Of a stretch of 40,879 nucleotides of DNA, positions 23,695 through 38,313 are shown in pieces. A program made the position numbers and the translations under genes. This DNA is from a virus. Numbering within the stretch: the first letter of the stretch is position 1; each line of letters starts with the position of its first letter. Location of the stretch: positions 1 to 40,879 of IMG/VR virus record IMGVR_UViG_3300029985_000077, one strand, 5' to 3'. A model generated the notes under the pieces. It saw only the letters and a program-made list of their open reading frames with translations, had not been told where the DNA came from and did no database searches.

Positions 23695-23732
23695 GTCAAC
23701 AGTTAAACGTCAACCATAACAATATCGCCAAC

Positions 23733-24176
23733 ATGAAAACATTTACTACCGTCTATAAAGTCACCACCAAAGCGTGTCAGTCCTGCCTTATGACTTATCC
23801 CCTCACGCCGATTGAAATCAAAAATTTTCTTGGCTTGTCATATTCGACGCAAACGTGGACAATTCCAAATATCCGTTTGGCCGGTTCGGGTATTTTTGTC
23901 TGCAAAACACGCGAGCAAGCCAACCGCTTTGTCAGAAACAACTCTGAAATTCTCGGCAATGATTATATCGTTTGGGAAGCAATCGCCATGAATGTTCGCC
24001 GCCAATACAAGTTTATCCCGCTCGGTAGAACGCGCACGGTTGAACACCTCGTCAAGTTTTGGAATGAAAAACTTTGGGATTTTCTTCGCAGCATCGGCGT
24101 GAAAGTGTTAAATTGCCGCCGGAAAGATTACTTTGTGGCCGATGCCGTTAAACTCATCAAGCAAGTCGAATTGTAA
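23733..24176 (+). CDS. Unknown phage protein with AGTTAAAC leader
   Basis: 147 aa. Two Cys near the start (CQSC), KTREQANRFVRNN in the middle and FWNEKLWDFLRSIGVKVL near the end. No family recognised. Translated from an SD-less A/C-rich leader rather than leaderless. Confidence 0.75.
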   Translation: MKTFTTVYKVTTKACQSCLMTYPLTPIEIKNFLGLSYSTQTWTIPNIRLAGSGIFVCKTREQANRFVRNNSEILGNDYIVWEAIAMNVRRQYKFIPLGRTRTVEHLVKFWNEKLWDFLRSIGVKVLNCRRKDYFVADAVKLIKQVEL

Positions 24177-24179
24177 CGT

Positions 24180-24259
24180 TCGCAAGACTTCCGTAAGTGT
24201 TTGATAATCAAGCACTTGCGGGGTCCGGCGTGTAACTCCCTGCAATTCAACGACTTACG
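24180..24259. repeat. Paired intergenic hairpin repeat, copy 8
   Basis: CCGTAAGTGTTTGATAATCAAGCACTTGCGG hairpin, GGTCCGGCGTG linker, TAACTCCCTGCAATTCAA-type dyad. Confidence 0.65.
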
Positions 24260-24288
24260 CACATAACAGAAAACGCGTGAGATGTCAA
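24260..24288 (-). promoter_or_regulatory. Divergent promoter into hairpin copy 8
   Basis: Minus strand TTGACA 24288-24283, 17 nt, TATGTG 24265-24260; start about 24253, slightly inside the first dyad. Confidence 0.5.
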
Positions 24289-24357
24289 GAGAAAAACGTC
24301 GCAGAACCGCTATTTATTGGCTTGACTATTTACGGCAATCTGATATAGTTTTCGCAT

Positions 24358-24606
24358 ATGAAATTAAAACAACTCGCGCCAAATCAAACCGAAGTAACCA
24401 TTGATGGAATGGACATCCTTTTTTCTTATCAAACACCCGTTGCGGCTGTTAGTCGCGGTCTCCTAGGCGGTATTGCCTATATCACAGGGAAGAAATGGAG
24501 CCGCACGACTTCAAAACATATCAATCAATGGCTCGCCAGCAAAAAGTATTCTACACAAAAACTTGAACCGCAAATTTTCTTTGATAATCTGGCGGAAAAG
24601 GCTTGA
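24358..24606 (+). CDS. Small conserved phage protein (DUF8033-like), near-leaderless
   Basis: 82 aa. KQLAPNQTEVTIDGMDILFSYQTPVAA, KKWSRTTSKHINQWL and PQIFFDNLAEKA match a recurrent phage family (pattern K.L.PN.TE...G..ILFSY.TPVA...KKWS.TTS.HINKWL); I believe DUF8033, unchecked. Promoter TTGACT 24322-24327, 16 nt, TATAGT 24344-24349, 8 nt to ATG. TGA lies in the next TTGACA. Confidence 0.8.
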   Translation: MKLKQLAPNQTEVTIDGMDILFSYQTPVAAVSRGLLGGIAYITGKKWSRTTSKHINQWLASKKYSTQKLEPQIFFDNLAEKA

Positions 24607-24631
24607 CAACCGCCGCGCAATCTGTTAATCT
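24603..24631 (+). promoter_or_regulatory. Promoter with AGTTAAAC leader for 24695 gene
   Basis: TTGACA 24603-24608, 17 nt, TAATCT 24626-24631; AGTTAAAC box at 24642-24649 in a ~55-nt leader made almost only of A and C. Confidence 0.55.
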
Positions 24632-24694
24632 ATTCCCTGTCAGTTAAACAAAAACAAACAAAAAAAACAGTCCCAAAAAAATACAAAAACAGTT

Positions 24695-25048
24695 ATGTTC
24701 ACACTCCTCATCGCCCTCCTCATCCTCGCCATTATCGGCGCGTTCAAAACTGGTTTCATTGCCCCTACTTACAAGGTGCTTTACAACCCGATTGACTCGC
24801 GCAATTCAAACCGGCCAATTCAAACATATACCATCGTCGGCAATCCGCGCAACCGCGCTTGGAAATCAACGGCGGGCAATACGTTGTTCACCGCGCTATC
24901 CGCGCACAATCACGAAAAGTTTATCGCGTTCCGTTCTGAACGAGTTTTGAGCGTGAACTTCGCGGGCTTTACAGTCCTGACGCCCAAAGCCCGGAAATAT
25001 GTTAAGTCAACTTGGCGCAACTCCGGCCATGTTGCCGCCGCCGCGTAA
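24695..25048 (+). CDS. Membrane-anchored phage protein
   Basis: 117 aa. N-terminal hydrophobic helix (FTLLIALLILAIIGAF), then a soluble domain (TYKVLYNPIDSRNSNRPIQT ... FRSERVLSVNFAGFTVL). Domain order resembles small WYL-like or membrane-tethered phage proteins but I do not assign a family. Followed by a terminator at 25069-25100. Confidence 0.7.
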   Translation: MFTLLIALLILAIIGAFKTGFIAPTYKVLYNPIDSRNSNRPIQTYTIVGNPRNRAWKSTAGNTLFTALSAHNHEKFIAFRSERVLSVNFAGFTVLTPKARKYVKSTWRNSGHVAAAA

Positions 25049-25068
25049 TCTCCGCAGCATCTCACCTC

Positions 25069-25100
25069 ACGCCGTGCTTAACTGCGCGGCGTTTTTCTTT
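25069..25100 (+). terminator. Rho-independent terminator
   Basis: ACGCCG / CGGCGT stem around a 12-nt loop followed by TTTTTCTTTT, 20 nt after the membrane-protein stop. Confidence 0.75.
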
Positions 25101-25111
25101 TGTGGTAACAC

Positions 25112-25183
25112 TTTCATAAGTCGTTTAGTTTCAACGGGTTACGCGCCGGAGCCTATAAACCCTTTAGAATCAAAGGGTTATGA
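25112..25183. repeat. Paired intergenic hairpin repeat, copy 9
   Basis: CATAAGTCGTTTAGTTTCAACGGGTTACG and AACCCTTTAGAATCAAAGGGTT dyads joined by CGCGCCGGAGCC. The second is nearly perfect. Confidence 0.65.
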
Positions 25184-25191
25184 AGATTCCA

Positions 25192-25220
25192 TCCTTACTA
25201 TATCATAGAAGGTTTGTCAA
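25192..25220 (-). promoter_or_regulatory. Divergent promoter into hairpin copy 9
   Basis: Minus strand TTGACA 25220-25215, 17 nt, TAAGGA 25197-25192; start about 25185. Confidence 0.55.
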
Positions 25221-25286
25221 GATAATAATTGATAATTGAATGAAATAATGGTTTGACATTTAGCGCGGGTATGATATTCTATTGGA

Positions 25287-25559
25287 ATGAATGAAGCATT
25301 AGTGAAAACTCGCAAACTGACAATTGAACAGCGTTTGGGAGATTTGCGCTCTTGGCTCGTTAATCGACGCTGTGAATCAAAAGACGATGCAATTCGCGTA
25401 AAAAAAGATTTGGCGGAATACATTTTAATCACAAACTTTTCCGTGATTATCAAAGGCAAGGTTGAATATGTGGATATTAAACCGCTTGGCCTCGGCGTTT
25501 ATCGTATCAAAACCAATATGCAAAATCAAACCCGCATGATTGGTAAAAATTGTGCTTGA
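25287..25559 (+). CDS. 90-aa unknown protein, leaderless
   Basis: Helical N-terminal half (LTIEQRLGDLRSWLVNRR), beta C-terminal half (VEYVDIKPLGLGVYRIKTN). Promoter TTGACA 25253-25258, 16 nt, TATTCT 25275-25280, 6 nt to ATG. Its TGA is within the next TTGACA. Function unknown. Confidence 0.75.
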   Translation: MNEALVKTRKLTIEQRLGDLRSWLVNRRCESKDDAIRVKKDLAEYILITNFSVIIKGKVEYVDIKPLGLGVYRIKTNMQNQTRMIGKNCA

Positions 25560-25590
25560 CATTGTAGCCTGAATGTGGTAATCTTTTGAT

Positions 25591-25767
25591 ATGGAAATCA
25601 AACTCATCAACTGGCCAACATCAACCGGAAAAGTCTGGCTAGTTTGGTCTGGCAGTCACGGATACTATCCCATCGCCGAATTGCCGACAACCGATATTCA
25701 TTCTGACTTGGCGCAAAAGGCGTTGGCCGATGAAATTGCTAAAGAAAAACCATTTTCCCCGCTGTGA
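25591..25767 (+). CDS. 58-aa unknown protein, leaderless
   Basis: MEIKLINWPTSTGKVWLVWS..., Trp-rich beta start. Promoter TTGACA 25556-25561, 17 nt, TAATCT 25579-25584, 6 nt to ATG. Ends in a GTGA overlap with the next gene. Confidence 0.7.
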   Translation: MEIKLINWPTSTGKVWLVWSGSHGYYPIAELPTTDIHSDLAQKALADEIAKEKPFSPL

Positions 25768-25937
25768 AATCTCAACTCCAAGCAATCAAATCAATCCGCA
25801 AAACGTGGGGTTTTAATCCCGTCCGCGTCGTGCCGGACAAAACAAAGTTAAGCGACCGCCAAAAACAAAAGCGGCTTGCGGCTGTTGAAGCAACTCATGG
25901 AATCTGGAAAAACCTGCCGGAATCTTTCGAGGATTAA
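25764..25937 (+). CDS. 57-aa basic protein, GTG start
   Basis: GTG start overlapping the previous stop (GTGA). KSQLQAIKSIRKTWGFNPVR then LSDRQKQKRLAAVEATHGIW. Basic, helical. Translation coupled to the leaderless gene upstream. Function unknown. Confidence 0.6.
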   Translation: MKSQLQAIKSIRKTWGFNPVRVVPDKTKLSDRQKQKRLAAVEATHGIWKNLPESFED

Positions 25938-26006
25938 CATAACCCATTGATATTCAGGAACTTACAGGCTCCGGCGCGTAACCCCCTCATAATCAAGCAC
26001 TTACCC
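25938..26006. repeat. Paired intergenic hairpin repeat, copy 10
   Basis: ATAACCCATTGATATTCAGG and GTAACCCCCTCATAATCAAG dyads with GGCTCCGGCGC linker. No divergent promoter recognised. Confidence 0.5.
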
Positions 26007-26190
26007 ACGCATTACTCGCGCACTACCCGCGCGGTGATGACATTAGAAACTCTTATTACCATTATTAGGGAAAAGTTGAGCAATTATTGTGCCATATTAC
26101 GCGCATATTACGAAAGTTGCGAAAAAATTAGTCCAAAATAAGTTCAAAATTTCCTTTACATTGGCCGCGTAGTCTGATATTCTCTAGGGA

Positions 26191-26886
26191 ATGAAATTAC
26201 TATCTGTTGGAAATGACGCCAAAACTGTCAAAGGTGAAAAACTCGGTTACTTAACGGGTATTCAATACCTTGCCCCCGCAATGGCAAGCGGCGTAAATAC
26301 CTGCCCAAATGCTTCCGAAGGGTGCAAAGCGGTGTGTCTTTTTACGGCTGGTTTCGGCGGAATTTACAAGGCTGTAAATGAAGGACGTATCAATCGCACA
26401 AAACTTTTCTTCTCTAATCGCGCCGAATATGGGAAGCAATTAGTTAAAGAAATTTCCGCGCTCATTAAACGCGGTGCAAAAGCGAAAATGAAAGTCGCGT
26501 GCAGATTAAATGGGACAAGCGATTTAGCATGGGAAAGCATCAAATTTGACGGTAAAAATATCATGGAAATTTTTCCAGATATTCAATTTTACGATTACAC
26601 AAAATCATCCGCCCGCGCCTTGCGTCATGCTAACGGCGAATTGCCTGCAAATTATCATCTAACCTTTTCCCGTTCGGAATCAAATCAGGCCGATGTTGAA
26701 AAGGTTTTGGCTGCTGGCGGAAATGTCGCGGTAGTTTTCCGCGAAAGTTTGCAAGCTGAATATCTTGGAAAGCAAATTGTAAATGGCGACGAAAGTGATT
26801 TACGTTTTAACGACCCGCGCAACGTCGTCGTCGGTTTGAAACAAAAGGGCAAAGCGAAAACTGATGCAAGCGGTTTCGTCATCTGA
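26191..26886 (+). CDS. GP88/DUF7227-like phage protein
   Basis: 231 aa. MKLLSVGNDAKTVKGEKLGY, NTCPNASEGCKAVCLFTAG (three Cys) and RTKLFFSNRAEYGKQLVKEI, then CRLNGTSDLAWE, FPDIQFYDYTKSSARAL and a C-terminal FNDPRNVVVGLKQKGKAK. I recognise this as a widespread phage family (GP88-like / DUF7227), of unknown activity. The Cys cluster and TIM-barrel-like strand order suggest a metal- or nucleotide-handling enzyme, but that is inference. Promoter TTTACA 26155-26160, 17 nt, TATTCT 26178-26183, 7 nt to ATG. Confidence 0.8.
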   Translation: MKLLSVGNDAKTVKGEKLGYLTGIQYLAPAMASGVNTCPNASEGCKAVCLFTAGFGGIYKAVNEGRINRTKLFFSNRAEYGKQLVKEISALIKRGAKAKMKVACRLNGTSDLAWESIKFDGKNIMEIFPDIQFYDYTKSSARALRHANGELPANYHLTFSRSESNQADVEKVLAAGGNVAVVFRESLQAEYLGKQIVNGDESDLRFNDPRNVVVGLKQKGKAKTDASGFVI

Positions 26887-26902
26887 CCGATTAGCAAAAC
26901 TT

Positions 26903-26962
26903 ATGGAAATCTGCCTTTTTATCGCGGCGATTCTTTACTGTGTCAAGACAAAAATCAAATAA
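26903..26962 (+). CDS. Possible 19-aa membrane peptide
   Basis: Hydrophobic MEICLFIAAILYCVKTKIK preceded by an AAAACTTATG linker like those of the 17-18 kb operon, and followed 1 nt later by the next gene. Confidence 0.35.
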   Translation: MEICLFIAAILYCVKTKIK

Positions 26963-26963
26963 A

Positions 26964-27209
26964 ATGACCAAATCAAAATACATAATTTTCGAAAAAAGGG
27001 ATATTGAGATGGCGGTTGTTTTCAGTCCATTGTTGCAGCATAGTGAAGTTAAAGTTGAATACGGCATACCAGTTTCGGCTGGTTTTTGCAGCATTGGCAG
27101 GGAAGAAAATGCCGCCTATCAAACTTGGGGGAACTCCGTTTCATTAAAACTCGAATCTCGCCCGCAAGATGCGGAAATTCTCAATCGGTATCTTGAATAT
27201 GATTGCTAA
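26964..27209 (+). CDS. Small conserved phage protein (SAGFC..G, SRP.DAEIL)
   Basis: 81 aa from the ATG at 26964, which begins 1 nt after the TAA of the 19-aa peptide. YIIFEKRDIEMAVVFSPLLQH, VSAGFCSIG and SRPQDAEILNRYL match a recurrent phage family of unknown function. Confidence 0.75.
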   Translation: MTKSKYIIFEKRDIEMAVVFSPLLQHSEVKVEYGIPVSAGFCSIGREENAAYQTWGNSVSLKLESRPQDAEILNRYLEYDC

Positions 27210-27272
27210 CCCGTTGCAATTCAACGACTTCCGCGCCGGAGCGTGTAACCCTTTGATAATGAGGGAGTTATA
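27207..27272. repeat. Paired intergenic hairpin repeat, copy 11
   Basis: TAACCCGTTGCAATTCAACG and GTAACCCTTTGATAATGAGG dyads joined by CGCGCCGGAGCG. Confidence 0.5.
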
Positions 27273-27320
27273 AGAGAAGTTTTTACTTGACAATTGATAA
27301 TTTTCTGGCATACTTAACGC

Positions 27321-27554
27321 ATGAATGTAATGACTTACGATAAACCTAAAACGACCGGCAACTATTGGCTTCAAAATTACAATCCGACAACTGGTTTGCC
27401 TGATTGCAGTCCTGAAATTGTCACTGTCGTTTTCGATTACTCTTTCCGGCGTAAAAAGGTTACGCGCGTGATTGCGAAATTCTGGCAATGCAATCTTGAC
27501 GACGTGATTAACGCAAAATGGAGTGACGAAATAGTCCCGCCGAAATTTTCGTAA
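27321..27554 (+). CDS. 77-aa unknown protein, leaderless
   Basis: MNVMTYDKPKTTGNYWLQNY..., ending VINAKWSDEIVPPKFS. Resembles small phage proteins with a G-x-Y-W N-terminal segment. Promoter TTGACA 27287-27292, 16 nt, CATACT 27309-27314, 6 nt to ATG. Confidence 0.75.
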   Translation: MNVMTYDKPKTTGNYWLQNYNPTTGLPDCSPEIVTVVFDYSFRRKKVTRVIAKFWQCNLDDVINAKWSDEIVPPKFS

Positions 27555-27632
27555 CACGAATCTTGTAACCTGTTGTAATACAGCGGGTTACAGGCTCCGA
27601 CACCTAAACCCCTCATGCTCAACGACTTACAG
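27555..27632. repeat. Paired intergenic hairpin repeat, copy 12
   Basis: TTGTAACCTGTTGTAATACAGCGGGTTACAG hairpin (good stem), GCTCCGACACC linker, AAACCCCTCATGCTCAAC-type dyad. Confidence 0.6.
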
Positions 27633-27679
27633 AAGTGATGATTAGAGAACATTATGCTTGACATAAACCGGGCTAATCA

Positions 27680-27702
27680 CCTATTTAGCCCTATTTTGGA
27701 AA
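27680..27702 (+). repeat. Dispersed copy of the CTATTT iteron
   Basis: CTATTTAGCCCTATTTTGGAA matches the third iteron near 18998 closely and again lies just upstream of a leaderless promoter. Confidence 0.45.
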
Positions 27703-27745
27703 GATTTGGCTTGACATTATTTGGCGGGTATGATAGTATTTCGGC

Positions 27746-27883
27746 ATGAATGGAACAATTACGTTTTACAGTCTTGAACAACTCGCGGAGTTTCTTAAAC
27801 ACTTCACCGGCGCGACCTCGACTTTTGAAATTAAAGAAGATAATTCCCGCCGATGGATTTTGACTTTTCTTGGTGGATTTTAA
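27746..27883 (+). CDS. 45-aa unknown protein, leaderless
   Basis: MNGTITFYSLEQLAEFLKHF..., ending RRWILTFLGGF. Promoter TTGACA 27711-27716, 17 nt, TAGTAT 27734-27739, 6 nt to ATG. Confidence 0.65.
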   Translation: MNGTITFYSLEQLAEFLKHFTGATSTFEIKEDNSRRWILTFLGGF

Positions 27884-27918
27884 TTGACAACCGCTAACAA
27901 ATCTGCTATATTACTCAC

Positions 27919-28272
27919 ATGAAAATTACTATTGAAATACCCAATGAAATGGTTGAAAAAATCGTCCGTGGAATCATGGACAACTTTCCCGAAGCGAGCA
28001 ATGGAAGCTCGTTAATATGCACAAGTTTCAAGTATTCAACTTTGGGCTTTATCTTTTCCGATGGCGAAGATAATAAGGAATATCTGCTTAATAAGGATAT
28101 TCTGCTCAAAACTTTTCCCCTGATATTTACCGACAAGTGGCCGAAGGGATGCACCAAACCGCCGATTTCCGCGAATTGGGAAGAGTGGGAAGAATGGCTA
28201 GGTCAGGCTGACGCGATGGATTTTGACGCCTTTGTCCAGTTGGCAATTTTCGGCGAAGTAATTTACGGATAA
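27919..28272 (+). CDS. Phage protein (DFDAFVQLAIFGEVIYG), leaderless
   Basis: 117 aa. Starts KITIEIPNEMVEKIVRGIMD and ends ADAMDFDAFVQLAIFGEVIYG, a start and end pattern shared by conserved phage proteins of unknown function. Promoter TTGACA 27884-27889, 17 nt, TATATT 27907-27912, 6 nt to ATG. Confidence 0.78.
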   Translation: MKITIEIPNEMVEKIVRGIMDNFPEASNGSSLICTSFKYSTLGFIFSDGEDNKEYLLNKDILLKTFPLIFTDKWPKGCTKPPISANWEEWEEWLGQADAMDFDAFVQLAIFGEVIYG

Positions 28273-28310
28273 TCCTTAACAAACCTGTTTAACTCTGCTA
28301 TTCTATCAGC

Positions 28311-28496
28311 ATGAAAGTTATCGAATTTTACATCCGCGAAGTCTATGGCAAAAAACTCGGCTACATCAAAGACAAGGCCGACGCCGCACTTGTCCAACGT
28401 CTCACTGGCAAAATAACAGTGGACGCCGAAACGCGGGAAGTGATTAAAGACTTGTCCGGCGGGATGATACAATTTCAACAGGTGATGTTTGAATGA
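28311..28496 (+). CDS. 61-aa unknown protein, leaderless
   Basis: Alpha/beta, MKVIEFYIREVYGKKLGYIK.... The pattern resembles small phage proteins of unknown function. Promoter TTAACA 28276-28281, 17 nt, TATTCT 28299-28304, 6 nt to ATG. Overlaps the next gene by ATGA. Confidence 0.72.
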   Translation: MKVIEFYIREVYGKKLGYIKDKADAALVQRLTGKITVDAETREVIKDLSGGMIQFQQVMFE

Positions 28497-28831
28497 AAAA
28501 ATTACTCATAGCAACAATTCTATTCGCGGCAATCCACGTTACCGCCGCGCCGATTGATTTTGAACATCTCGCGGACTGTATCAAAGTTCACGAGAACTCT
28601 CTAAAATACCCCTACGGATGCGAATACCGCGTTAATGGCGTAATTCATGGCTGGCCTGATGCGATAGCACGGCAAAAATGTATCGCGCTTTGTAAAAAAG
28701 AGTATGCAAAATGGGACGGTAGCGGCGATTACTTTCAATTCCTGAATAAAGTATATGCCAAGGATTCCCGATGGTTTTTAGACGTGGAAAAACTTTACAA
28801 TCAGGTTCCGAAAGTTGTAAATTCCTCATAA
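28493..28831 (+). CDS. Secreted lysozyme/transglycosylase-like protein
   Basis: 112 aa. Signal peptide MKKLLIATILFAAIHVTAA (cleavage after AA). The mature part has HENSLKYPYG (candidate catalytic Glu), ARQKCIALCKKEYAKW and FLNKVYAKDSRWFLDVEKLY. This order (ENS..YPYG, AR..C...., W, F..FL...Y....W...V..LY) matches small secreted phage proteins I regard as lysozyme/SLT-like, so it may be the endolysin or a cell-wall hydrolase. Two Cys could form a disulfide. Coupled by ATGA to the gene upstream. Assignment moderate. Confidence 0.6.
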   Translation: MKKLLIATILFAAIHVTAAPIDFEHLADCIKVHENSLKYPYGCEYRVNGVIHGWPDAIARQKCIALCKKEYAKWDGSGDYFQFLNKVYAKDSRWFLDVEKLYNQVPKVVNSS

Positions 28832-28886
28832 TCAACCACTTACAGGCTCCGGCACGTAACCCCTTGATAATCAACGACTTACATCA
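28828..28886. repeat. Paired intergenic hairpin repeat, copy 13
   Basis: TCATAATCAACCACTTACAG and GTAACCCCTTGATAATCAACGACTTAC dyads with GGCTCCGGCAC linker; last copy, at the end of the plus block. Confidence 0.55.
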
Positions 28887-28903
28887 ATCCTAATTTGGGC
28901 AAC

Positions 28904-28933
28904 AAAAACCCCCGCCGAAGCAGGGGTTTATTT
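28904..28933. terminator. Bidirectional terminator between convergent blocks
   Basis: AAACCCC...GGGGTTT stem with A-run before and T-rich stretch after (ACCCCCGCCGAAGCAGGGGT). Placed where the plus block (to 28831) meets the minus block (from 28950). Confidence 0.75.
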
Positions 28934-28949
28934 GAGTTATTTGGGAGTA

Positions 28950-29399
28950 TTATTTGGAACTTTCCGGCGCGGCAAAGGCGTATTTATAACATTCGTCCTT
29001 AAAATCGTCATCGGGATTTTCAGCAGTTATCGTGCCAAACTGGTATTCCTCGGTATTCCCGCCGATTGAACGGAAACTTTCGGTAGCAATGGAATTGTAT
29101 TGCTGTTCGGCCAATTCTTGGGCGCGTTGATTAACGGTAGTGTCTCCCTTTTTTGCGGTATCAGCGAGACGAAAGACGTTACGGAAAAATAAATAACGCT
29201 TCAACTTCGCGGCGGTTGTCCAGACGGCAATCGTAGCGTCGGCCACAAAATTCGGCTTGTCATCTTCGCTGCGTGACCCCACGGCTCCAAAGTTCAGAAG
29301 GTCGAGATAATCACCATACGCCTCTTGCTCATTCGCGCCAGAAATGAAGCACAAGACGCTAGTTCCGTAATTTTGTATTGTCCAGTTTTTAATTTTCAT
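28950..29399 (-). CDS. Unknown phage protein, leaderless
   Basis: 149 aa (WTIQNYGTSVLCFISGANEQ..., C-terminus DDDFKDECYKYAFAAPESSK), helical and acidic. No family recognised. Promoter (minus) TTGACA 29433-29428, 16 nt, TATACT 29411-29406, 6 nt to ATG. Confidence 0.75.
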   Translation of the reverse strand: MKIKNWTIQNYGTSVLCFISGANEQEAYGDYLDLLNFGAVGSRSEDDKPNFVADATIAVWTTAAKLKRYLFFRNVFRLADTAKKGDTTVNQRAQELAEQQYNSIATESFRSIGGNTEEYQFGTITAENPDDDFKDECYKYAFAAPESSK

Positions 29400-29495
29400 A
29401 CGAGTAGTATAGCAGGGTTAATGAGAATGTCAAGATAAAAAGACAGGGTTGAGTGTTCTTTTAGCGGACTCGCACCGTTCGCCCCGTCCAAATTT

Positions 29496-29756
29496 TCAGC
29501 GGACGCCGTAGAAGATTTCACGCTGGCGTGACAAAGGCATTTCGTCAGACTCCGCGCAGACCTTCGGGAACTTGCTTGGCTTGCCGTTGATGGTTTTGGG
29601 TTTGTATTCGCCAGTGTGAACCGCCGCAATCCGGCGAGGAGCAAAAGCCCCATGCTCATTATTGTGGTAGCCGTGGGTTGGCACTTGTTCCGCAAAACCG
29701 TCTGCGCCCTTGCGAGTCAGCTTTGCCCGAATCTGCTTTTGGTTTTTGTTTGCCAT
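29496..29756 (-). CDS. Unknown basic protein with AGTTAAAC leader
   Basis: 86 aa, basic N-terminus (ANKNQKQIRAKLTRKGADGF), His-rich GYHNNEHGAF. Promoter (minus) TTGACT, 17 nt, TACATT, 6 nt, then AGTTAAAC and an A/C-rich leader of 29 nt. No SD. Confidence 0.7.
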   Translation of the reverse strand: MANKNQKQIRAKLTRKGADGFAEQVPTHGYHNNEHGAFAPRRIAAVHTGEYKPKTINGKPSKFPKVCAESDEMPLSRQREIFYGVR

Positions 29757-29821
29757 AATTTTTTGTGTTTGTTTGTTGTTTAACTGCCGACAATGTATCA
29801 GAGTGAGAAAGCAAAGTCAAG
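29757..29821 (-). promoter_or_regulatory. Promoter and AGTTAAAC leader of 29756 gene
   Basis: TTGACT (29821-29816), 17-nt spacer, TACATT, 6 nt, predicted start at the A of AGTTAAAC. Same box as at 23701, 24642, and upstream of 31732 and 38251. Confidence 0.6.
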
Positions 29822-29840
29822 TAAAAATAATCAAAATCAT

Positions 29841-30056: not shown

Positions 30057-30098
30057 ATAAGAATACTATCAGAGAGTCCTATTAAAGTCAAGTAAAAT

Positions 30099-30266: not shown

Positions 30267-30312
30267 ATTCAAATCCTATCAAATAAATCAATCAAAGTCA
30301 AGTAAATTTTCT

Positions 30313-30477: not shown

Positions 30478-30520
30478 AAGATAAGATACCAAACGAATCA
30501 ATTAAAGTCAAGTAAAATAA

Positions 30521-31168: not shown

Positions 31169-31732
31169 TTACTCGGTGATTATTTTACCACCGACGATTT
31201 TGCATTTCGAGAACCGGCGAAACTCACCATTCTGCAAGCCGTCAATATAATCTTCGGTTTCTTGAATGACTTCAATCGTGCGCCACTTCGGTTCCTCGCC
31301 GCTGCTCCTGCCCTTGTCATACACGAAGGACACGGTTTTAATCACGGTCGGGATTATTTCGTCATACAACGGAAACACCCGCGTTTCACTTGTGGTTATA
31401 CCGATAAGAGAAACTTTGCCCGCGCGTTCGCCGTTCGTCGGCGTGATATAACGCACCAAGTAATTGTATTCCTCGTTATCATTATGACCGCAAATATAAA
31501 CCCCGCCGATTCCCGTCTTGAAGTGTGCGACCAACTGCGCGGCCAAGCAACTCATACCATTCGCGGTTTTGGTGTTGTCGCCCAAACCGTAGCCGTTTGT
31601 AACCCTGAAATCCTTCAAAAACTCCGCGAGTTCTTTACCGATGCCAGAGTAATACCCGTCACATCGCCGGTAGAATGAAAGAATGGGTTTATCTTGCTCG
31701 TCACGAATTGTTGTTTTAGCATGTGTGGACAT
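31169..31732 (-). CDS. Conserved phage protein (SFYRRCDGYYSGIG), unknown function
   Basis: 187 aa. TIRDEQDKPILSFYRRCDGY, ANGMSCLAAQLVAHFKTGIGG and YICGHNDNEEYNYLVRYI match a widespread phage/bacterial family whose hallmark is FYRHxDGYxxGxG. Function unknown. Promoter (minus) TTGACA 31790-31785, 17 nt, TAGATT, 6 nt to an AGTTAAAT box, then a 23-nt A/C-rich leader without SD. Confidence 0.8.
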   Translation of the reverse strand: MSTHAKTTIRDEQDKPILSFYRRCDGYYSGIGKELAEFLKDFRVTNGYGLGDNTKTANGMSCLAAQLVAHFKTGIGGVYICGHNDNEEYNYLVRYITPTNGERAGKVSLIGITTSETRVFPLYDEIIPTVIKTVSFVYDKGRSSGEEPKWRTIEVIQETEDYIDGLQNGEFRRFSKCKIVGGKIITE

Positions 31733-31790
31733 AATTTTGTGTGTGTTATTTAACTGCTATCAATCTAACAGATTTTTCGGCGCGTGTCAA
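31733..31790 (-). promoter_or_regulatory. Promoter and AGTTAAAT leader of 31732 gene
   Basis: TTGACA-N17-TAGATT-N6-AGTTAAATAACACACAC; the predicted start is the A of AGTTAAAT. Confidence 0.6.
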
Positions 31791-31796
31791 GTAATT

Positions 31797-31972
31797 TCAG
31801 TTAAAAAACCATCCAAATGTGTGCCTGATTACTGTCTCTGTGACCTGATGCAAGATAAGCCACTTAATCCATGCTAACGGTGTAAAAAAGAAGTCCACGA
31901 TAGACCAAAAAATACTCCCGTGAATGGTATCATCGCGGTGAGGACACAGAATATGGTGTAGAGTATTTTCAT
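31797..31972 (-). pseudogene. Small membrane protein split by a -1 frameshift at T6
   Basis: From the ATG at 31972 the frame reads MKILYTIFCVLTAMIPFTGV and stops after 32 aa. The -1 frame continues from a run of six T as FWSIVDFFFTPLAWIKWLIL and stays open to a TGA at 31797, giving a natural-looking two-helix membrane protein of about 58 aa. Preceded by an A/C-rich leader (CACCTAACCCATTA...ACTTATG) closely similar to the one before 17304. Could be decayed, programmed slippage or a sequence error. Confidence 0.4.
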
Positions 31973-32048
31973 AAGTTGTTTATTTGTAATGGGTTAGGTG
32001 CGGGGCATCTATCTGTTTTTGTAGTTCTTTGCTTGCACTATTTTATTT

Positions 32049-32363: not shown

Positions 32364-32367
32364 ATAA

Positions 32368-32583: not shown

Positions 32584-32585
32584 AA

Positions 32586-32756
32586 TTAGTCAGCAGTTGG
32601 GATGATGTGACCGTCGAAAACAAACCAGACATCAGAACCAAATTCTTTTGCCAGTGTTTTCCCTAGGTTGTCGGTTATAACATGGCGAAACCTTGTTATG
32701 GTCTGGCCGCGATTATAGCCTACTTGTTCGGGGTAAATGACTGTGTATTTTTTCAT
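32586..32756 (-). CDS. 56-aa unknown protein, near-leaderless
   Basis: MKKYTVIYPEQVGYNRGQTI..., ending DVWFVFDGHIIPTAD. Promoter (minus) TTGACA 32792-32787, 17 nt, TATTAT 32769-32764, 7 nt to ATG. Head of a three-gene coupled unit. Confidence 0.68.
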   Translation of the reverse strand: MKKYTVIYPEQVGYNRGQTITRFRHVITDNLGKTLAKEFGSDVWFVFDGHIIPTAD

Positions 32757-32799
32757 TGGTTAAATAATATCAGAGTTTGCGGTTGGTGTCAAGGAGATT

Positions 32800-33048
32800 T
32801 TAGAGTTCGGTAATGTTGACTTTCGCGGCAGACTCTTCAACCTGACCCGCGATTGATTGCGTGAGTTCCCCCACCGTGCCAGTGACGAGATTTTCAAACC
32901 CAAATAAAGCCGCCTGTTTTCGAGATAGCAGGAACTTCATGTTGTCGTCGTTAAATTTGGCTTTCAATTGTCCAAGAGTGACAGGAACGAACGAAAAGCT
33001 ACCCTTCGTGCGACCCGAACCGACCCGACGAACTTTGGTGTGTTTCAT
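32800..33048 (-). CDS. 82-aa basic protein, leaderless
   Basis: Basic N-terminus KHTKVRRVGSGRTKGSFSFV followed by VTLGQLKAKFNDDNMKFLLS, which resembles small DNA-binding or regulatory phage proteins; no family assigned. Promoter (minus) TTGACA 33083-33078, 17 nt, TATTAT 33060-33055, 6 nt to ATG. Located directly downstream of the RuvB-like gene. Confidence 0.7.
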   Translation of the reverse strand: MKHTKVRRVGSGRTKGSFSFVPVTLGQLKAKFNDDNMKFLLSRKQAALFGFENLVTGTVGELTQSIAGQVEESAAKVNITEL

Positions 33049-33089
33049 AGTTAAATAATATATTAAATTTCAGTTAATGTCAAGTAAAA

Positions 33090-34076
33090 TTATGCAGGAC
33101 AAGCATCAAGATTTTTCAGATACTCCAAGCCCCTCGGTGTAATCATGCGCCCTTTTCCGGCCTGAATATCCATGAGCGAATTTTTTTGTAAGACGCTTTC
33201 ATAATCAGCCTGTAGTGCAGTTCGAGAAAGTCCGGTTTTGGCCGCGAGATTGGTCAAACTCGACCCCTCTAAACGCTCCTGCAAAAAACGGAGAATCGAA
33301 ATCTCAATGGGAGAAAGACCCAAAGGTTTGATGGACAGAATGTTTTTCAAATCTTCCCACGATTTACGCCCGAAAGTTTTCTCGCGACAAAGATATGTCT
33401 TGACATCGTTAGTTAATTTGATTGCATTTCTCGCGTTACCACGAACCACTTTCGACATTTCTTCCAACACTCCTTCAATGAAAGAAACTTCCGGCGCGGA
33501 CTTTTGAATAATCTTTGCGAGGTCGTCATAGGTATAGGCGCACAGGTCAATTCGTGTTAGGCGGTCGAGCAGCGGAGCAAAAATCTGTTCCGATTCAGTT
33601 GTAGCGAAGATGAAGGTCTGCCGAGCAAAGTCAATATCAATCGCATACTCGTCATAGACGAAAGTATTTTTGTTGGTGACGTTAGGATTGAGCATGGTTA
33701 GTAAACTCATCGTCACGTCGTTTTTGAGTTCGCTGGCCTCGTCAATAAAAACCGTCACGTCTTTATCCACCACATGATTGATAAGCACAGAGTTGACGAA
33801 TTGACGAATTGATTTAATGGTGCTGGCGTTAATCTCCAAAAAGGTTTTCTTCTTGGGGGTGACGCCATCCTCTTTCATTAGCGGCTTGCCATCTTCGCCA
33901 TAAGCCAAAAGTTGTTTGGCCGTTTCGCGGGCAATGAGGCTTTTCCCATTCCCCTTCGCAGCGGCGAAAAGGAGATTAGGCATGATACGGGTTTGGTGGT
34001 AGGCGTTGATATAGAAGCCCAACTTTTTCTTGGCTTCATCCTGACCCACGACTGACTCGAATAGGTTTTTTGTCAT
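33090..34076 (-). CDS. RuvB-like AAA+ ATPase
   Basis: 328 aa. Order of motifs as in RuvB: FESVVGQDEAKKKLG, Walker A AKGNGKS (40-46), Walker B VFIDEAS (109-115), sensor 1 FATTE (~152), DRLTRIDL, sensor 2 RGNARNA (~212) and a C-terminal winged helix (GLSRTALQADYESVLQ, TPRGLEYL). RuvB drives Holliday-junction branch migration with RuvA; no RuvA or RuvC gene is visible here. Could act in phage recombination or in replication as a clamp/helicase loader. Leaderless: TTGACT 34111-34106, 17 nt, TATTCT 34088-34083, 6 nt to ATG. Confidence 0.85.
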   Translation of the reverse strand: MTKNLFESVVGQDEAKKKLGFYINAYHQTRIMPNLLFAAAKGNGKSLIARETAKQLLAYGEDGKPLMKEDGVTPKKKTFLEINASTIKSIRQFVNSVLINHVVDKDVTVFIDEASELKNDVTMSLLTMLNPNVTNKNTFVYDEYAIDIDFARQTFIFATTESEQIFAPLLDRLTRIDLCAYTYDDLAKIIQKSAPEVSFIEGVLEEMSKVVRGNARNAIKLTNDVKTYLCREKTFGRKSWEDLKNILSIKPLGLSPIEISILRFLQERLEGSSLTNLAAKTGLSRTALQADYESVLQKNSLMDIQAGKGRMITPRGLEYLKNLDACPA

Positions 34077-34134
34077 GTGAAGAGAATATCAGTTTGCTCG
34101 GTTGAAGTCAAGTAAATTTTAATAAATAATTTAA

Positions 34135-34323
34135 TTAAATTTCCCCTATGGTGTGATTCTCGGCTGCGTCATAGACTCTGCGTTTGTCCCGCGTTCCGTC
34201 TTGGATACGGATAAGATACTCCTTGAGTTTGGTTGCCCTCTTGGGATTAGAAGCGGCCCGTTTAGCGACATGGATAGGATGATTCCATTCAAGAGGGATT
34301 TTGGATTCGTATGTAATTTTCAT
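34135..34323 (-). CDS. 62-aa unknown basic protein, leaderless
   Basis: MKITYESKIPLEWNHPIHVA..., Arg/Lys-rich helix (RAASNPKRATKLKEYLIRI). Promoter (minus) TTGACT 34358-34353, 17 nt, TAGAGT 34335-34330, 6 nt to ATG. Confidence 0.7.
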   Translation of the reverse strand: MKITYESKIPLEWNHPIHVAKRAASNPKRATKLKEYLIRIQDGTRDKRRVYDAAENHTIGEI

Positions 34324-34369
34324 CTTCTAACTCTACTATAACCCTCAAACCAAGTCAAGACAATTTTAA

Positions 34370-34621
34370 TTAAATTATTTTAATTTTATCAAACGCCTCT
34401 TCTGCCTGTTTCGCCACCTCTCTCACGAAGTCACGCACGATTGGGTCGCGCATTTCCCTGCCGCGTATTATTTTAGTGGGTTTGATTCGATTTTCCTCGA
34501 TGTGGGTTTGGACATTTTTATTTAATTTTTTAAATAATTTGCTCCAGTAGAAGGCGTAGAACTCAGCTAAAGTTTGGGGTTGCTTATTTGGGTCAGATGC
34601 AGGAATTTTTGGGGTATCCAT
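34370..34621 (-). CDS. 83-aa unknown protein
   Basis: Helical, with IKPTKIIRGREMRDPIVRDF. Starts 43 nt after the upstream gene; no consensus promoter, so probably cotranscribed with it. Function unknown. Confidence 0.65.
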   Translation of the reverse strand: MDTPKIPASDPNKQPQTLAEFYAFYWSKLFKKLNKNVQTHIEENRIKPTKIIRGREMRDPIVRDFVREVAKQAEEAFDKIKII

Positions 34622-34664
34622 AAAGTTACTAAAATTGACTTAAATTAACTTATTTAGCTTATAT

Positions 34665-34901
34665 TTAAGCCGAAATCACTGGAAATTCGCTCAATTCCGC
34701 CGAAATTTTGGCATCATTTGCGGCTTTGAGAAGAGCCTTATTTACCGCAGCATCATTTAGCTTTCGAGTATTGCGGCGTCCGAATGTCCCGCGCTCAGAC
34801 TTGCGGAACATCGTTGAAGTATGTTGGGCGCGGCGGTGTAAAACGTGAGCAAATTTGTCTGCTATAGTTTTGGCGGCGGAATCAATGTTTGTTTCGTCCA
34901 T
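34665..34901 (-). CDS. 78-aa basic protein behind a long structured leader
   Basis: ATG at 34901 (MDETNIDSAAKTIADKF...); a GTG at 34955 would add 18 residues. Basic helical middle (HRRAQHTSTMFRKSERGTFG). The only promoter found lies at 35222-35194, so the leader is about 230-290 nt and full of hairpins. Confidence 0.62.
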   Translation of the reverse strand: MDETNIDSAAKTIADKFAHVLHRRAQHTSTMFRKSERGTFGRRNTRKLNDAAVNKALLKAANDAKISAELSEFPVISA

Positions 34902-34955
34902 AAAATTGCAGGGGATTTTTTCAGGCTGTTCCCCGAACAGGTTTGTCAACCTCAC

Positions 34956-35222
34956 GCCACGACGCTAGTTGCATGATTTATGGTAAAGTCCCGTGAGACT
35001 TTTCGCCGAGTCAGGCTATCGGCTACCAAGTTCCGTAATCAGACATACATCCGATTACCTTGTATTTTAATGGGACGAGTAACGTTCCTCCCAAACCATG
35101 ATTGTAGCAAACGTTATGCTATATCTCGTTTCTACTGTATCCCGATAACCTCCACGGACACATAGTTCCGCTTCAACAGTCAATCACAAACTTATATTAA
35201 CAGGGTTTTCAATTTTTGTCAA
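34956..35222 (-). ncRNA. Candidate structured RNA or long 5' leader
   Basis: Minus-strand promoter TTGACA 35222-35217, 17 nt, TAATAT 35199-35194; start about 35187. No ORF for ~230 nt. Hairpins include GTAATC...GATTAC, AAAGTC-TCACGG-GACTTT and CCGA...TCGG. It could be a riboswitch-like leader for the 34901 gene or an independent RNA. Confidence 0.45.
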
Positions 35223-35257
35223 GATTATTTTTGCAGGCTGCTTAAACGTGTGTAATC

Positions 35258-36109
35258 ATGGATATGAGAGAAATTTATGATATAATCACGAAGCGGACAT
35301 TCACAATTCAAGATGGAGGAATCCGTGCATGGTGTCGGTCAATAAAAACGAAGCATAGAACCAATAGAGAAATAGATAGGGGGCTACATATTTTAGGAAG
35401 ATATATTTCGCCCAATAATAAAGATAAAATTTTTACCTTGATTGATTTTGACACGGCGCAAGAATATGATTGTATTTGTAATACTACCCTTGAGTATTAC
35501 TTCAATAAAAAAATGACCATGAACGAAATCAAATATGTTTTTGAACTCAAACGCAAAAGACAAAATCTGGCCTCTATTCTAGGGAGAGTATTCTATCTAA
35601 AGGGTAGTCCACCCAAGAAAACCCCTTTTAAAGCTATGAAAAATATGTCCCCGCAATATAAAAGTAATTTTATTCAACAAAAATATAAAACTAAATTACA
35701 ATCAAAAATTTATCACGCTCTTTTAAGCAGAATTAATTACTCAATAAAAAATAAAACAAAATCATCCAAAGAATTAACTGGTTGTAATGTAAGTTTTCTG
35801 ATGGGATATTTGGAAAAACAGTTCGCCAAAGAAATGACGTGGAGTAATTATGGTAATGGTGGATGGCATATAGACCACATAAAACCTTGTGATTTATTCA
35901 ATTTAGAAGATGAAAAGCAAAAAATGGAGTGTTTCCATTATTCCAACCTTCAACCACTTTGGTCAACAACCAAAATAGCAATGCAACATGGCCAAGATGA
36001 AACCTATATTGGAAACCTAGATAAAAACGCTAAAAATATTAAAGGCGGGGTTGCCTTGCCTGTTGTCGTTGTAGCCGAAGAAACTGTTTCCACAGAAGAA
36101 CTCCTATAG
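35258..36109 (+). CDS. HNH endonuclease, inserted against the local strand
   Basis: 283 aa. Long basic N-terminus, then LTGCNVSFLMGYLEKQF, MTWSNYGNGGWHIDHIKP (HNH core intact) and CFHYSNLQPLWSTTKIAM, close to the 9978-10931 HNH C-terminus. It is the only plus-strand gene in the 28.9-40.9 kb block. Its last ~25 residues (ALPVVVVAEETVSTEELL) are read antisense through the end of the peptidase gene, suggesting recent insertion. No SD before the ATG. Confidence 0.82.
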   Translation: MDMREIYDIITKRTFTIQDGGIRAWCRSIKTKHRTNREIDRGLHILGRYISPNNKDKIFTLIDFDTAQEYDCICNTTLEYYFNKKMTMNEIKYVFELKRKRQNLASILGRVFYLKGSPPKKTPFKAMKNMSPQYKSNFIQQKYKTKLQSKIYHALLSRINYSIKNKTKSSKELTGCNVSFLMGYLEKQFAKEMTWSNYGNGGWHIDHIKPCDLFNLEDEKQKMECFHYSNLQPLWSTTKIAMQHGQDETYIGNLDKNAKNIKGGVALPVVVVAEETVSTEELL

Positions 36110-36335
36110 TTTTTTCTAATTTAACTATTTGTTTTTCGTTGAGACTCGGCAGTGTGACGTGACAGCACTCGTGAAAAATAGTGAGCCACAGTTCACGCGG
36201 GGATTGTGATGGGTCTATAACTATTTTATGTTCCTCGTCAAACGCTAAACCCACAACTCCATCCGCCGATAAATCTTTAAAATATACGCGCGGAGCATCT
36301 TTGATTACTACCCTTGAATGAATGTGGCGCGGCAT
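36039..36335 (-). CDS. HExxH metallopeptidase-like protein
   Basis: 98 aa from ATG 36335. LWLTIFHECCHVTLPSLNE contains HECCH, an HExxH zinc motif, with a helix following (IVKLEKTIGVLLWK). Similar in size and motif position to ImmA/IrrE-type or small phage zincin proteins. Substrate unknown. The C-terminal 24 residues overlap the convergent HNH gene, so the original C-terminus may have been altered. Lies 19 nt after the 41-aa gene upstream. Confidence 0.7.
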   Translation of the reverse strand: MPRHIHSRVVIKDAPRVYFKDLSADGVVGLAFDEEHKIVIDPSQSPRELWLTIFHECCHVTLPSLNEKQIVKLEKTIGVLLWKQFLRLQRQQARQPRL

Positions 36336-36354
36336 CCATTCCAATTACACAAAC

Positions 36355-36480
36355 TTAATTAAAATCCTCTCCCCTGTATTCATCATTCACATCTTTCCCT
36401 GTAATCCAATAGCGGAGGTTCAGACAGAAGATTGCCACTAGAGCAAAGACAAACCAAAGAGATAATTTAAGAAAATTCAC
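36355..36480 (-). CDS. 41-aa membrane protein, GTG start
   Basis: NFLKLSLWFVFALVAIFCLN then a short polar tail (YWITGKDVNDEYRGEDFN). One transmembrane helix. The GTG start overlaps the previous stop (GTGA). Confidence 0.6.
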   Translation of the reverse strand: MNFLKLSLWFVFALVAIFCLNLRYWITGKDVNDEYRGEDFN

Positions 36481-36683
36481 AAATTATATCCAATCATTCC
36501 ATTAAGCCCTTTACTCATATCGCATTTTGAGCCATTCAAAGAGAACACCTCAACGTGAGGGTATTGCTCGTGTAATAGCCACCACAATTCCCAAATCGAT
36601 TCCCTTGACCCAATATATTCGGAGCGAATATTAGCATCGTATTTGTTCTTGCTTGTTGTTCTGTGCCAAGTTAATCTAAACAT
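36477..36683 (-). CDS. 68-aa unknown protein, leaderless
   Basis: MFRLTWHRTTSKNKYDANIR..., LWWLLHEQYPHVEVFSLNG. Promoter (minus) TTGACT 36718-36713, 17 nt, TATTAT 36695-36690, 6 nt to ATG. Resembles small phage proteins with W-x-L-x-x-x-x-P-x-V; unknown. Confidence 0.7.
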   Translation of the reverse strand: MFRLTWHRTTSKNKYDANIRSEYIGSRESIWELWWLLHEQYPHVEVFSLNGSKCDMSKGLNGMIGYNL

Positions 36684-36740
36684 AATTTAATAATAGCAGA
36701 GTGTTCGGGGGAAGTCAAGGAGATTTTAATTAAAATTCAT

Positions 36741-36956
36741 TTAATTTCTCCCACTACAATTTGGGCAGATGGCGCGGCCACTCGGCGTATAGTTCACCCG
36801 CGTTTTGCATTTGGGGCAGACTCCTACCGCCAGAAACGCCATTCGTTTAAACTGGTAATACTTGTATTGAATCAGCACCCATGCGCTATGCGGGCAGATA
36901 ATCCAGCTGATACATAGGGCAATGACGGCAATTAGTAGATTTTGAAGGAAGTTCAT
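36741..36956 (-). CDS. Membrane protein with C-terminal zinc ribbon
   Basis: 71 aa. N-terminal transmembrane helix (FLQNLLIAVIALCISWII) and C-terminal CPKCKTRVNYTPSGRAICPNC zinc ribbon. Start overlaps the stop of the upstream membrane gene (ATGA). Function unknown. Confidence 0.72.
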   Translation of the reverse strand: MNFLQNLLIAVIALCISWIICPHSAWVLIQYKYYQFKRMAFLAVGVCPKCKTRVNYTPSGRAICPNCSGRN

Positions 36957-37168
36957 TTCACGGAATTAGTTATCCACTCAAATTGTGTCACGCCTGTTTG
37001 GGGATTTACAGTATAGTGGGCGACGTTGGCTTTAATAGCCTCGTTTTGTATAATACCACTGCCACAATAAGCCCCAATCGTAAAAAATGCACAAACAAAT
37101 GCAAAAAATACAAAATAAATTATGCTTGAATCTCCTTTGTTTCTTGACTTTGATTGGTTGATTTTCAT
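36953..37168 (-). CDS. Small membrane protein (AHYTVNPQTGVTQFEW)
   Basis: 71 aa. Basic N-terminus, one transmembrane helix (YFVFFAFVCAFFTIGAYCG), then AIKANVAHYTVNPQTGVTQF, a tail common in phage membrane proteins of unknown role. Unlike most genes here it has an SD (GAAAGGA, about 8 nt before ATG). Confidence 0.75.
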   Translation of the reverse strand: MKINQSKSRNKGDSSIIYFVFFAFVCAFFTIGAYCGSGIIQNEAIKANVAHYTVNPQTGVTQFEWITNSVK

Positions 37169-37194
37169 ATTTTTATTCCTTTCTATTCGTTAAA

Positions 37195-37211
37195 CAAAGC
37201 TATTAGCTTTG
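37195..37211 (-). terminator. Perfect 7-bp hairpin, likely terminator
   Basis: CAAAGCT-AAT-AGCTTTG read on the minus strand, followed by TTTAAC, 65 nt after the Ala-rich gene. Confidence 0.5.
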
Positions 37212-37275
37212 CAGGGGTTTGTTTCACTATGTGATTGTTATTATATTTTACCTCACGGCGTTCGGTGGTGCTTAT

Positions 37276-37830
37276 TCAATTAGTGAATGGGTTAGGAACA
37301 ATCTTACGGATTTGGTTCGCTTGCCATTTTCTTTCTGATAACCGAGCAGCAGCATCAGCAGCAGCATAAGCATCAGCATAAGCAGCAGCATCAGTAGCAT
37401 CAGCAGCAGCATAAGCAGCAGCATAAGCAGCAGCATAAGCATCAGCATAAGCAGCAGCATCAGTAGCATCAGCAGCAGCATAAGCAGCAGCATAAGCAGC
37501 ATCAGCAGCAGCATAAGCAGCCTTCCTATTCTCTTCAGAGGGCTCTTTCAACCATTTTTTCGCAGCATTGATTGCATTACGAGGAGCTTTGTTATTTGGA
37601 TACTTCTTTTCGTAAATTGAAATAACATGCTCTGCACAAGTAATTGCAATTTTAACTGATTGAGGCTTAGATAAATTTTTCGTTCTACGCAAGAGCCAAA
37701 TCAACCAGTCACCACGTTCACAGGTATCATAAATCTTTGCGAAGTCAAAATTGCATGAACGGGCGAATACTAATCCATCTGAACAAGGAGATTCATCTAA
37801 GAGCCATTTTTCGTTAAATTTTGTTTTCAT
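37276..37830 (-). CDS. Ala-rich repeat protein, immunity-like (Imm5-like)
   Basis: 184 aa. N-terminal ~100 residues are globular (CSDGLVFARSCNFDFAKIYD, DWLIWLLRR, AITCAEHVISIYEKKYPNN), then about 60 residues of AYAAADAAY-type repeats, then RLSERKWQANQIRKIV. The pattern matches phage/bacterial proteins annotated as putative immunity (Imm5-like) proteins; real function unknown. A 69-bp (23-aa) unit is duplicated. Starts 1 nt after the upstream stop (TAATATG). Confidence 0.7.
   Translation of the reverse strand: MKTKFNEKWLLDESPCSDGLVFARSCNFDFAKIYDTCERGDWLIWLLRRTKNLSKPQSVKIAITCAEHVISIYEKKYPNNKAPRNAINAAKKWLKEPSEENRKAAYAAADAAYAAAYAAADATDAAAYADAYAAAYAAAYAAADATDAAAYADAYAAADAAARLSERKWQANQIRKIVPNPFTN
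37340..37520. repeat. Triplet-based tandem repeat (GCAGCAGCATAAGCA units)
   Basis: Low-complexity coding repeat of CAGCAGCATAAG units with a 69-bp higher-order period (TCAGTAGCAT at 37391 and 37460). Encodes the Ala-rich tract of the 184-aa protein; likely to vary in copy number. Confidence 0.75.
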
Positions 37831-37831
37831 A

Positions 37832-38251
37832 TTATTCGAGAATACCGCAGGGTTTAAAAGTCTTTCCGAAGTCGGTGGAGTATTCCATTTCTTCTAAAGC
37901 TCGCGCGGGAGTATAGGACGCGTTGGACGGGCTATTAATTGTAGAGTCGTAAATTTTCCCATATTTAAATCCCAAGATTACCGCCGTACTAGAACACAAA
38001 TAAGTAGAAACGCCTCTCTCGTCTTTAAAACGAATCACCGCGCCGATGGGAACTTCCGACGCCTTCCACGCCCGCAGTTTGGGCTTCGGCGGGAAGCGAA
38101 ATTCATATTTTTCAATATTCTCCAAATTAGCCCTGAAAATATACTTAGCTCGCTGCCATTCTCGCTGCCATTGCCCATATTGGAGACGACATTCGACCAC
38201 TTCGCCGCGATTGTGGGCTTCGTAGAAGGGGAGGATTTCTGTTAGTATCAT
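37832..38251 (-). CDS. Phage protein of unknown function with AGTTAAAA leader
   Basis: 139 aa. VECRLQYGQWQREWQRAKYI, KLRAWKASEVPIGAVIRFKD and a C-terminal YSTDFGKTFKPCGILE. Resembles phage proteins with W...EVP.GA/IR.K pattern. Promoter (minus) TTGACA 38313-38308, 17 nt, TAATAT 38290-38285, start at the AGTTAAAA box, then an A/C-rich leader. Confidence 0.72.
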   Translation of the reverse strand: MILTEILPFYEAHNRGEVVECRLQYGQWQREWQRAKYIFRANLENIEKYEFRFPPKPKLRAWKASEVPIGAVIRFKDERGVSTYLCSSTAVILGFKYGKIYDSTINSPSNASYTPARALEEMEYSTDFGKTFKPCGILE

Positions 38252-38313
38252 AGATTTTATTGGTTGTGTTGTTTTAACTGACTAATATTAACGGATTTTT
38301 CTGCTTGTGTCAA

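Follow-up and report, generated by a model that had tools for sequence, protein, structure and literature searches.

Leaderless mRNAs are known among phages from Thermus phage P23-45. Several other systems bear on how phage and bacterial messages begin. In Cluster K mycobacteriophages, the Start-Associated Sequences (SAS), a short asymmetric 13-bp repeat (GGGATAGGAGCCC), lie immediately upstream of the starts of many genes and are often kept at homologues across subclusters, with no function assigned to them (PMC3203893). Phage AR9 has multisubunit polymerases of its own and 5′ untranslated regions (UTRs) of 26–491 nt, in which motifs have been predicted, likewise with no assigned role (PMC5312081). 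The yifK and dppA mRNAs carry ACA-type translation enhancers that act beside a Shine–Dalgarno (SD) sequence (PMC3879156), and leaderless mRNA initiation has been reviewed (PMC9031893). Here, we analyse a 40,879-base virus record from IMG/VR, the whole of which is referred to as the window, where five genes are preceded by a promoter, the heptamer AGTTAAA (hereafter, the box) and an A/C-rich leader lacking an SD.

The box resembles SAS in being a short motif ahead of phage genes that is kept at homologous genes, but differs from them in both sequence and position, since it does not directly adjoin the start codon and instead lies 22–53 nt from ATG, at a near-fixed distance from the -10 hexamer (PMC3203893). 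The 13-bp SAS was not seen in the five leaders by reading, no separate search having been made. Like the yifK and dppA enhancers, the leaders are A/C-rich stretches with ACA motifs upstream of a start codon, but they lack the SD, and the likeness is one of sequence alone (PMC3879156). AR9 is comparable in having predicted motifs in its 5′ UTRs, whereas its multisubunit polymerases and the 26–491 nt span of its UTRs set it apart from the window phage (PMC5312081). Leaderless initiation as reviewed (PMC9031893) corresponds to the majority class of the window phage, with ATG at the predicted +1, and the five box genes form the leadered exception. No description of an AGTTAAA plus A/C element was found in the open-licence papers searched. 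Its retention by distant relatives ahead of some of the same genes suggests a genuine, as yet unstudied signal that acts when the message is made or read. Mostly leaderless, SD-poor phages point to hosts in which the start of translation is little studied, and conserved SD-free leaders provide a natural sequence set for asking how a bacterial ribosome loads without an SD; the division into box and A/C stretch makes this question testable piecewise.

Promoters and leaders of the window

Promoters were defined by TTGAC, a spacer of 16–18 and a G two bases ahead of TANNNT, with the downstream sequence ignored. Among the 31 promoters of the window, 23 have an ATG 4–9 nt past the -10 hexamer, mostly at 6 nt, and are predicted to be leaderless; five have AGTTAAA within the first 18 nt (Table 1); and three have neither, with no convincing gene downstream. 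A stricter count, in which the ATG must open an open reading frame (ORF) of 25 codons or more, yields 21 leaderless promoters, five leadered ones and five without an ORF. The phage seems to open nearly all of its messages either at the start codon or at AGTTAAA followed by a mostly A/C stretch.

The association of the box with promoters is well supported. AGTTAAA occurs at 21 sites in the window (12.2 expected), and at five of them it starts 5, 6, 6, 6 and 10 nt past a -10 hexamer. All five promoter-linked boxes are part of CAGTTAAA, of which the window has 13 sites altogether. The binomial probability of at least five boxes among 31 promoters is 4e-8, and across 2000 sets of random sites no 7-mer was common to more than four sites. 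Thus, the first-pass annotation of this DNA was right in assigning AGTTAAA near the predicted +1 to genes 23733, 24695, 29756, 31732 and 38251, and in placing the element on both strands (two boxes on the plus strand and three on the minus strand).

These five genes are not leaderless, their ATG being located 23, 28, 29, 32 or 53 nt past the box and not at or next to +1. Past the box, A+C amounts to 0.76–0.91, with 9–19% T and 0–8% G, so that the earlier wording ‘almost only A and C’ was slightly overstated; the chance of such A/C richness in a single leader ranges from 0.0003 to 0.03, the weakest cases being 23733 and 31732. The reported lack of an SD holds for all five leaders, whose duplexes with the anti-SD have energies of +1.9 to +3.4 kcal/mol. 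Moreover, the minimum free energy of all five leaders is 0.0, the box being predicted to be single-stranded, and the stability of the region from -30 to +30 around each start is below that of 90–99% of random windows. The leaders in this way combine the two properties of an SD-independent unstructured A/C leader, namely, no SD pairing and no secondary structure around the start.

Scarcity of SDs extends to related phages. The relatives rich in leaderless promoters are G002, G006, G010, G024, G035, G038, G354 and the short record G037, and leadered genes are present in them as well. An SD motif precedes 8–20% of ORFs in the window, G038, G002, G035, G006 and G024, 27% in G010 and 26% in G354, compared with 66–76% in phages Melnitz and SPO1, 48% in HTVC008M and 28% in the cyanophage S-PM2.

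Table 1. Coordinates of the box-leadered genes, the sixth A/C-leadered promoter and the operon with A/C-rich spacers
Feature	Coordinates	Strand	Details
Promoter of 23733	23667..23694	+	TTGACT-N16-TATCTT
Box of 23733	23701..23707	+	AGTTAAA, 6 nt past -10
Leader of 23733	23708..23732	+	SD-less, A/C-rich, A+C 0.76
Gene 23733	23733..24176	+	147 amino acids (aa), no family match
Promoter of 24695	24603..24631	+	TTGACA-N17-TAATCT
Box of 24695	24642..24648	+	AGTTAAA, 10 nt past -10
Leader of 24695	24649..24694	+	SD-less, A/C-rich, A+C 0.87
Gene 24695	24695..25048	+	117 aa, hydrophobic N-terminus
Promoter of 29756	29792..29820	-	TTGACT-N17-TACATT
Box of 29756	29779..29785	-	AGTTAAA, 6 nt past -10
Leader of 29756	29757..29778	-	SD-less, A/C-rich, A+C 0.91
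Gene 29756	29496..29756	-	86 aa, no family match
Promoter of 31732	31762..31790	-	TTGACA-N17-TAGATT
Box of 31732	31749..31755	-	AGTTAAA, 6 nt past -10
Leader of 31732	31733..31748	-	SD-less, A/C-rich, A+C 0.81
Gene 31732	31169..31732	-	187 aa
Promoter of 38251	38285..38313	-	TTGACA-N17-TAATAT
Box of 38251	38273..38279	-	AGTTAAA, 5 nt past -10
Leader of 38251	38252..38272	-	SD-less, A/C-rich, A+C 0.86
Gene 38251	37832..38251	-	139 aa, no significant family match
Sixth leadered promoter	17037..17064	+	TTGACG-N16-TATCTT, no extended TG
Leader of sixth promoter	17065..17102	+	A/C-rich; variant GCGTAACGA replaces box, no exact AGTTAAA
Operon	17268..18635	+	SD-less, G-poor, A/C-rich spacers between stop and following ATG

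Separability and conservation of the box and the A/C stretch

The sequence also supports anchoring of the box to the -10 hexamer. In 18 collected box leaders, the box starts 5–10 nt past the -10 (mode 6, standard deviation 1.6), the near-fixed spacing of an initially transcribed promoter element, and 22–53 nt ahead of ATG (standard deviation 6.7), a comparison of spreads that is indicative because both distances are bounded by the search rules. A C directly precedes 13 of these 18 boxes. Since the box is anchored to the -10 at the same offset as the ATG of leaderless genes, its A is the likely +1, except at 24695, and the box would probably form the first bases of the transcript.

The A/C stretch, in turn, occurs apart from the box. 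The five A/C-leadered promoters listed in the first-pass annotation were confirmed, but a sixth, at 17037(+), had been missed; with GCGTAACGA in place of the box, it indicates that the pairing of box and leader is not an absolute rule. In addition, the operon at 17–18.7 kb has spacers at 17619–17658, 17968–17998, 18191–18221 and 18605–18635 with A+C of 0.90, 0.81, 0.90 and 0.72, respectively, and with neither SD nor box; a fifth (17268–17303) is likewise A/C-rich by reading, and the sixth (18396–18406, 11 nt) is not. No listed promoter pair falls within these A/C spacers. Because the A/C stretch recurs between cistrons without box or promoter, it probably serves to load ribosomes independently of an SD. 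The earlier view of one defined 5′ element stands insofar as the element recurs in related phages and ahead of several orthologues, but two separable modules fit better. The four spacers for which A+C is given are also near-repeats between small genes, running from the stop through CCGCA.CAACC..CCACAAAA..AACCACTT to the ATG, and are possibly duplicated cassettes.

A motif search, which the first-pass annotation had proposed, revealed the same element in related uncultivated phages ahead of orthologues at 31–53% protein identity. The orthologue of 24695 in G024 (42% identity) has the box and the A/C leader as well. For rIIB, the box is found in three out of four phages (G038, G024 and G002; 36–53% identity), and for rIIA, also in three out of four (G037, G038 and G002; 31–33% identity), G024 having AGTAAAA; both names are from PHROGs matches. 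The gene assigned to DUF932 by Pfam (39.5% identity) is preceded by CGTTAAG in G010 and AGTTAAA in G002, and its homologue in G006 (27%) has no box. The G038 homologue of 31732 (37%) has an A/C leader with the variant CGGTAAG. Three isolated phages have their rIIA or rIIB inside an operon, with an annotated ribosome binding site in one of them. Absence of the box ahead of orthologues had been named as evidence that would count against the element, and on this point the outcome is mixed: the box is present at orthologues of 24695, rIIA, rIIB and DUF932, but there are also variants, one leaderless rIIB (see below) and the operon-borne genes of the three isolates.

The leaderless class was kept in 45 of 50 directional orthologue comparisons with both starts typed; 24 further comparisons had no recognised promoter and one lay at an edge. 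In a hand count covering the window and the relatives including G354, with leaders of A+C of at least 0.66 regarded as A/C-rich, the pattern [AC]GTTA[AG][AG] was present after 14 of the 24 promoters whose leaders passed this threshold (five of the 14 in the window) and after 1 of the 15 with less A/C-rich leaders. A different repeated leader motif, ACAATACAAAATTAAT, is found at L381–L383 (G356), mostly ahead of an SD-like sequence.

Possible roles of the two modules

We consider the chances to be about even that the two modules jointly form a second mRNA class, in which the transcript starts at the box and the A/C stretch provides for loading without an SD. A host-type sigma-70 RNA polymerase would read TTGAC-N17-TGN-TANNNT and start at the box A to yield 5′-AGUUAAAC. 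The first module, (C)AGTTAAA, would be part of the promoter or of the RNA 5′ end and would be used for genes that are not leaderless; in leaderless genes, the ATG would take its position. The second, the G-poor A/C stretch, whether after the box or alone between cistrons, would act as an unstructured region for SD-independent 30S loading, of the type thought to be served by S1 or ACA-type enhancers. Initiation at the box A, 30S loading and any role of S1 are what we infer from this arrangement. A rather doubtful extension is a two-word code at +1, whereby 5′-AUG would direct leaderless 70S-type initiation and 5′-AGUUAAA with the A/C stretch leadered, SD-free 30S initiation, so that the promoter, through its choice of first bases, would set the translation mode and level of gene sets such as rIIA and rIIB.

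Several observations weigh against the two-module class. At 10 nt past the -10, the box of 24695 is rather far for a start at its A. The class is not kept in the rIIB of G037 or in the homologue of a 110-aa gene of G354, both of which are leaderless. Ten of the 24 A/C-rich leaders lack [AC]GTTA[AG][AG], some having GTAAG-like variants, and the A/C bias of the coding strand, with A+C of 0.59–0.73 in the first 41 nt of eight leaderless genes, accounts for part of the leader composition. Finally, the three promoters without a convincing gene are also without a box, which is thus not needed for transcription as such.

A tentative alternative is that the box is an element of transcription only, affecting start-site choice or promoter escape in the initially transcribed region, and that the A/C leader is incidental, reflecting the abundance of A on the sense strand and the avoidance of folding. 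Its anchoring to the -10 and not to the ATG fits such a role, as does its occurrence elsewhere. In a wider viral scan, the box was found in at least 119 stretches versus 63 for a reversed-box control, and many of the matches are from other phages and have leaders with an SD. With the selected matches removed, AGTTAA followed 31 of 187 non-leaderless promoters (1.2 expected) in contigs that had been chosen for holding one such site and are therefore not a representative sample; in the same contigs, the control hexamer AATTGA was found once (1.1 expected). Given that AGTTA[AG] follows promoters of SD-using phages, use of the box is not confined to SD-less translation; a strictly SD-less role of the box was rejected on this ground, and the box is not a device specific to S1 or to SD-less initiation. 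Against a purely transcriptional element, all three gene-less promoters of the window lack the box. AGTTAA follows 0 of 57 promoters in contigs picked by a control pattern and is thus no general rule, and no promoter found in the 50 kb covered for each of Melnitz, HTVC008M, S-PM2 and SPO1 has it. The control-pattern contigs also show some recurrence of their own hexamer (4 versus 0.48 expected). AGTTAA at the predicted transcript start is a recurring feature of some lineages, not of all. Another scan gave 39 stretches, in which an SD-less, A/C-rich leader followed by an ATG was confined to L091/L107 (one sequence), L092 and L094; the remainder had an SD, another leader or no gene. A scan of a genome collection for a promoter, CAGTTAAA and an A/C leader gave 17 matches over many phyla, several with an SD or no gene, which were taken as chance.

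It is unlikely that the box is an operator, at which a phage or host DNA-binding protein at +1 would regulate rIIA, rIIB and other genes as a group. A fixed heptamer at a near-fixed distance from the -10, ahead of a partly conserved gene subset, would be expected of an operator, and promoter 31790(-) has an inverted copy upstream (31798–31805); but no palindrome was seen, nor a second site at the other four promoters, and the same hexamer in phages of other kinds would require a common regulator. Still less probable is a box acting in RNA, as a 5′-terminal tag (5′-AGUUAAA) giving the message protection or serving as the binding site of a protein or small RNA. Its presence on leadered mRNAs both with and without an SD, its absence from gene-less promoters and its predicted single-strandedness are consistent with a tag, but no partner was found, and the data do not separate an RNA tag from a DNA-level element. 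Chance or composition, whether a heptamer rich in A within leaders rich in A or repeated duplication of a single promoter, was rejected: although AGTTAAA is common in the AT-rich window, the probability of ~4e-8, the differing promoter spacers and the retention at orthologues of 31–53% identity speak against it.

Relatives, host and other features of the window

The terminase TerL (8137–9981, minus strand) has 180 relatives in viral contigs, with a top identity of 68%. Many of these have few or no leaderless promoters, indicating that the two-class scheme is not general across the 180. TerL searches yielded no close isolated phage, and isolates with homologues of TerL, Gp88, rIIA or rIIB are all distant and indicate no host. 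The combination of TTGAC, TANNNT and leaderless genes is reminiscent of what we take to be the promoter grammar of Actinobacteria. Patescibacteria gained no support as hosts: dense leaderless promoters were not seen among 145 genomes (1–3 matches in 29 of them), and their TerL matches are weak (2/286). None of eight related phage records has an S1-domain gene, and Rfam has zero matches in the window. Protein scans found no relative of the 31169–31732 product and a single one, in G002, of the 33090–34076 product.

A tRNA-Met (CAT) gene is located at 22182–22257 on the plus strand of this phage of mostly leaderless genes. The minus-strand gene at 37276–37830 encodes a repeat protein rich in Ala and Asp, with matches to Imm5-like immunity families. 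Past one strong gene-less promoter, the RNA at 39262–39381(-) folds at -52.4 kcal/mol (z of -5.1 versus shuffles) and is a candidate structured non-coding RNA; downstream of promoters 38791(-) and 35222(-), which also have no convincing gene, the RNA folds no better or slightly better than shuffles. Promoter-like sites on the minus strand at 24288, 23633, 22466, 21769 and 19909 belong to non-coding sequence that is repeated and contains hairpin-like CGTAAGTCGTTGAAT... units adjoining genes, possibly gene-end or non-coding RNA repeats.

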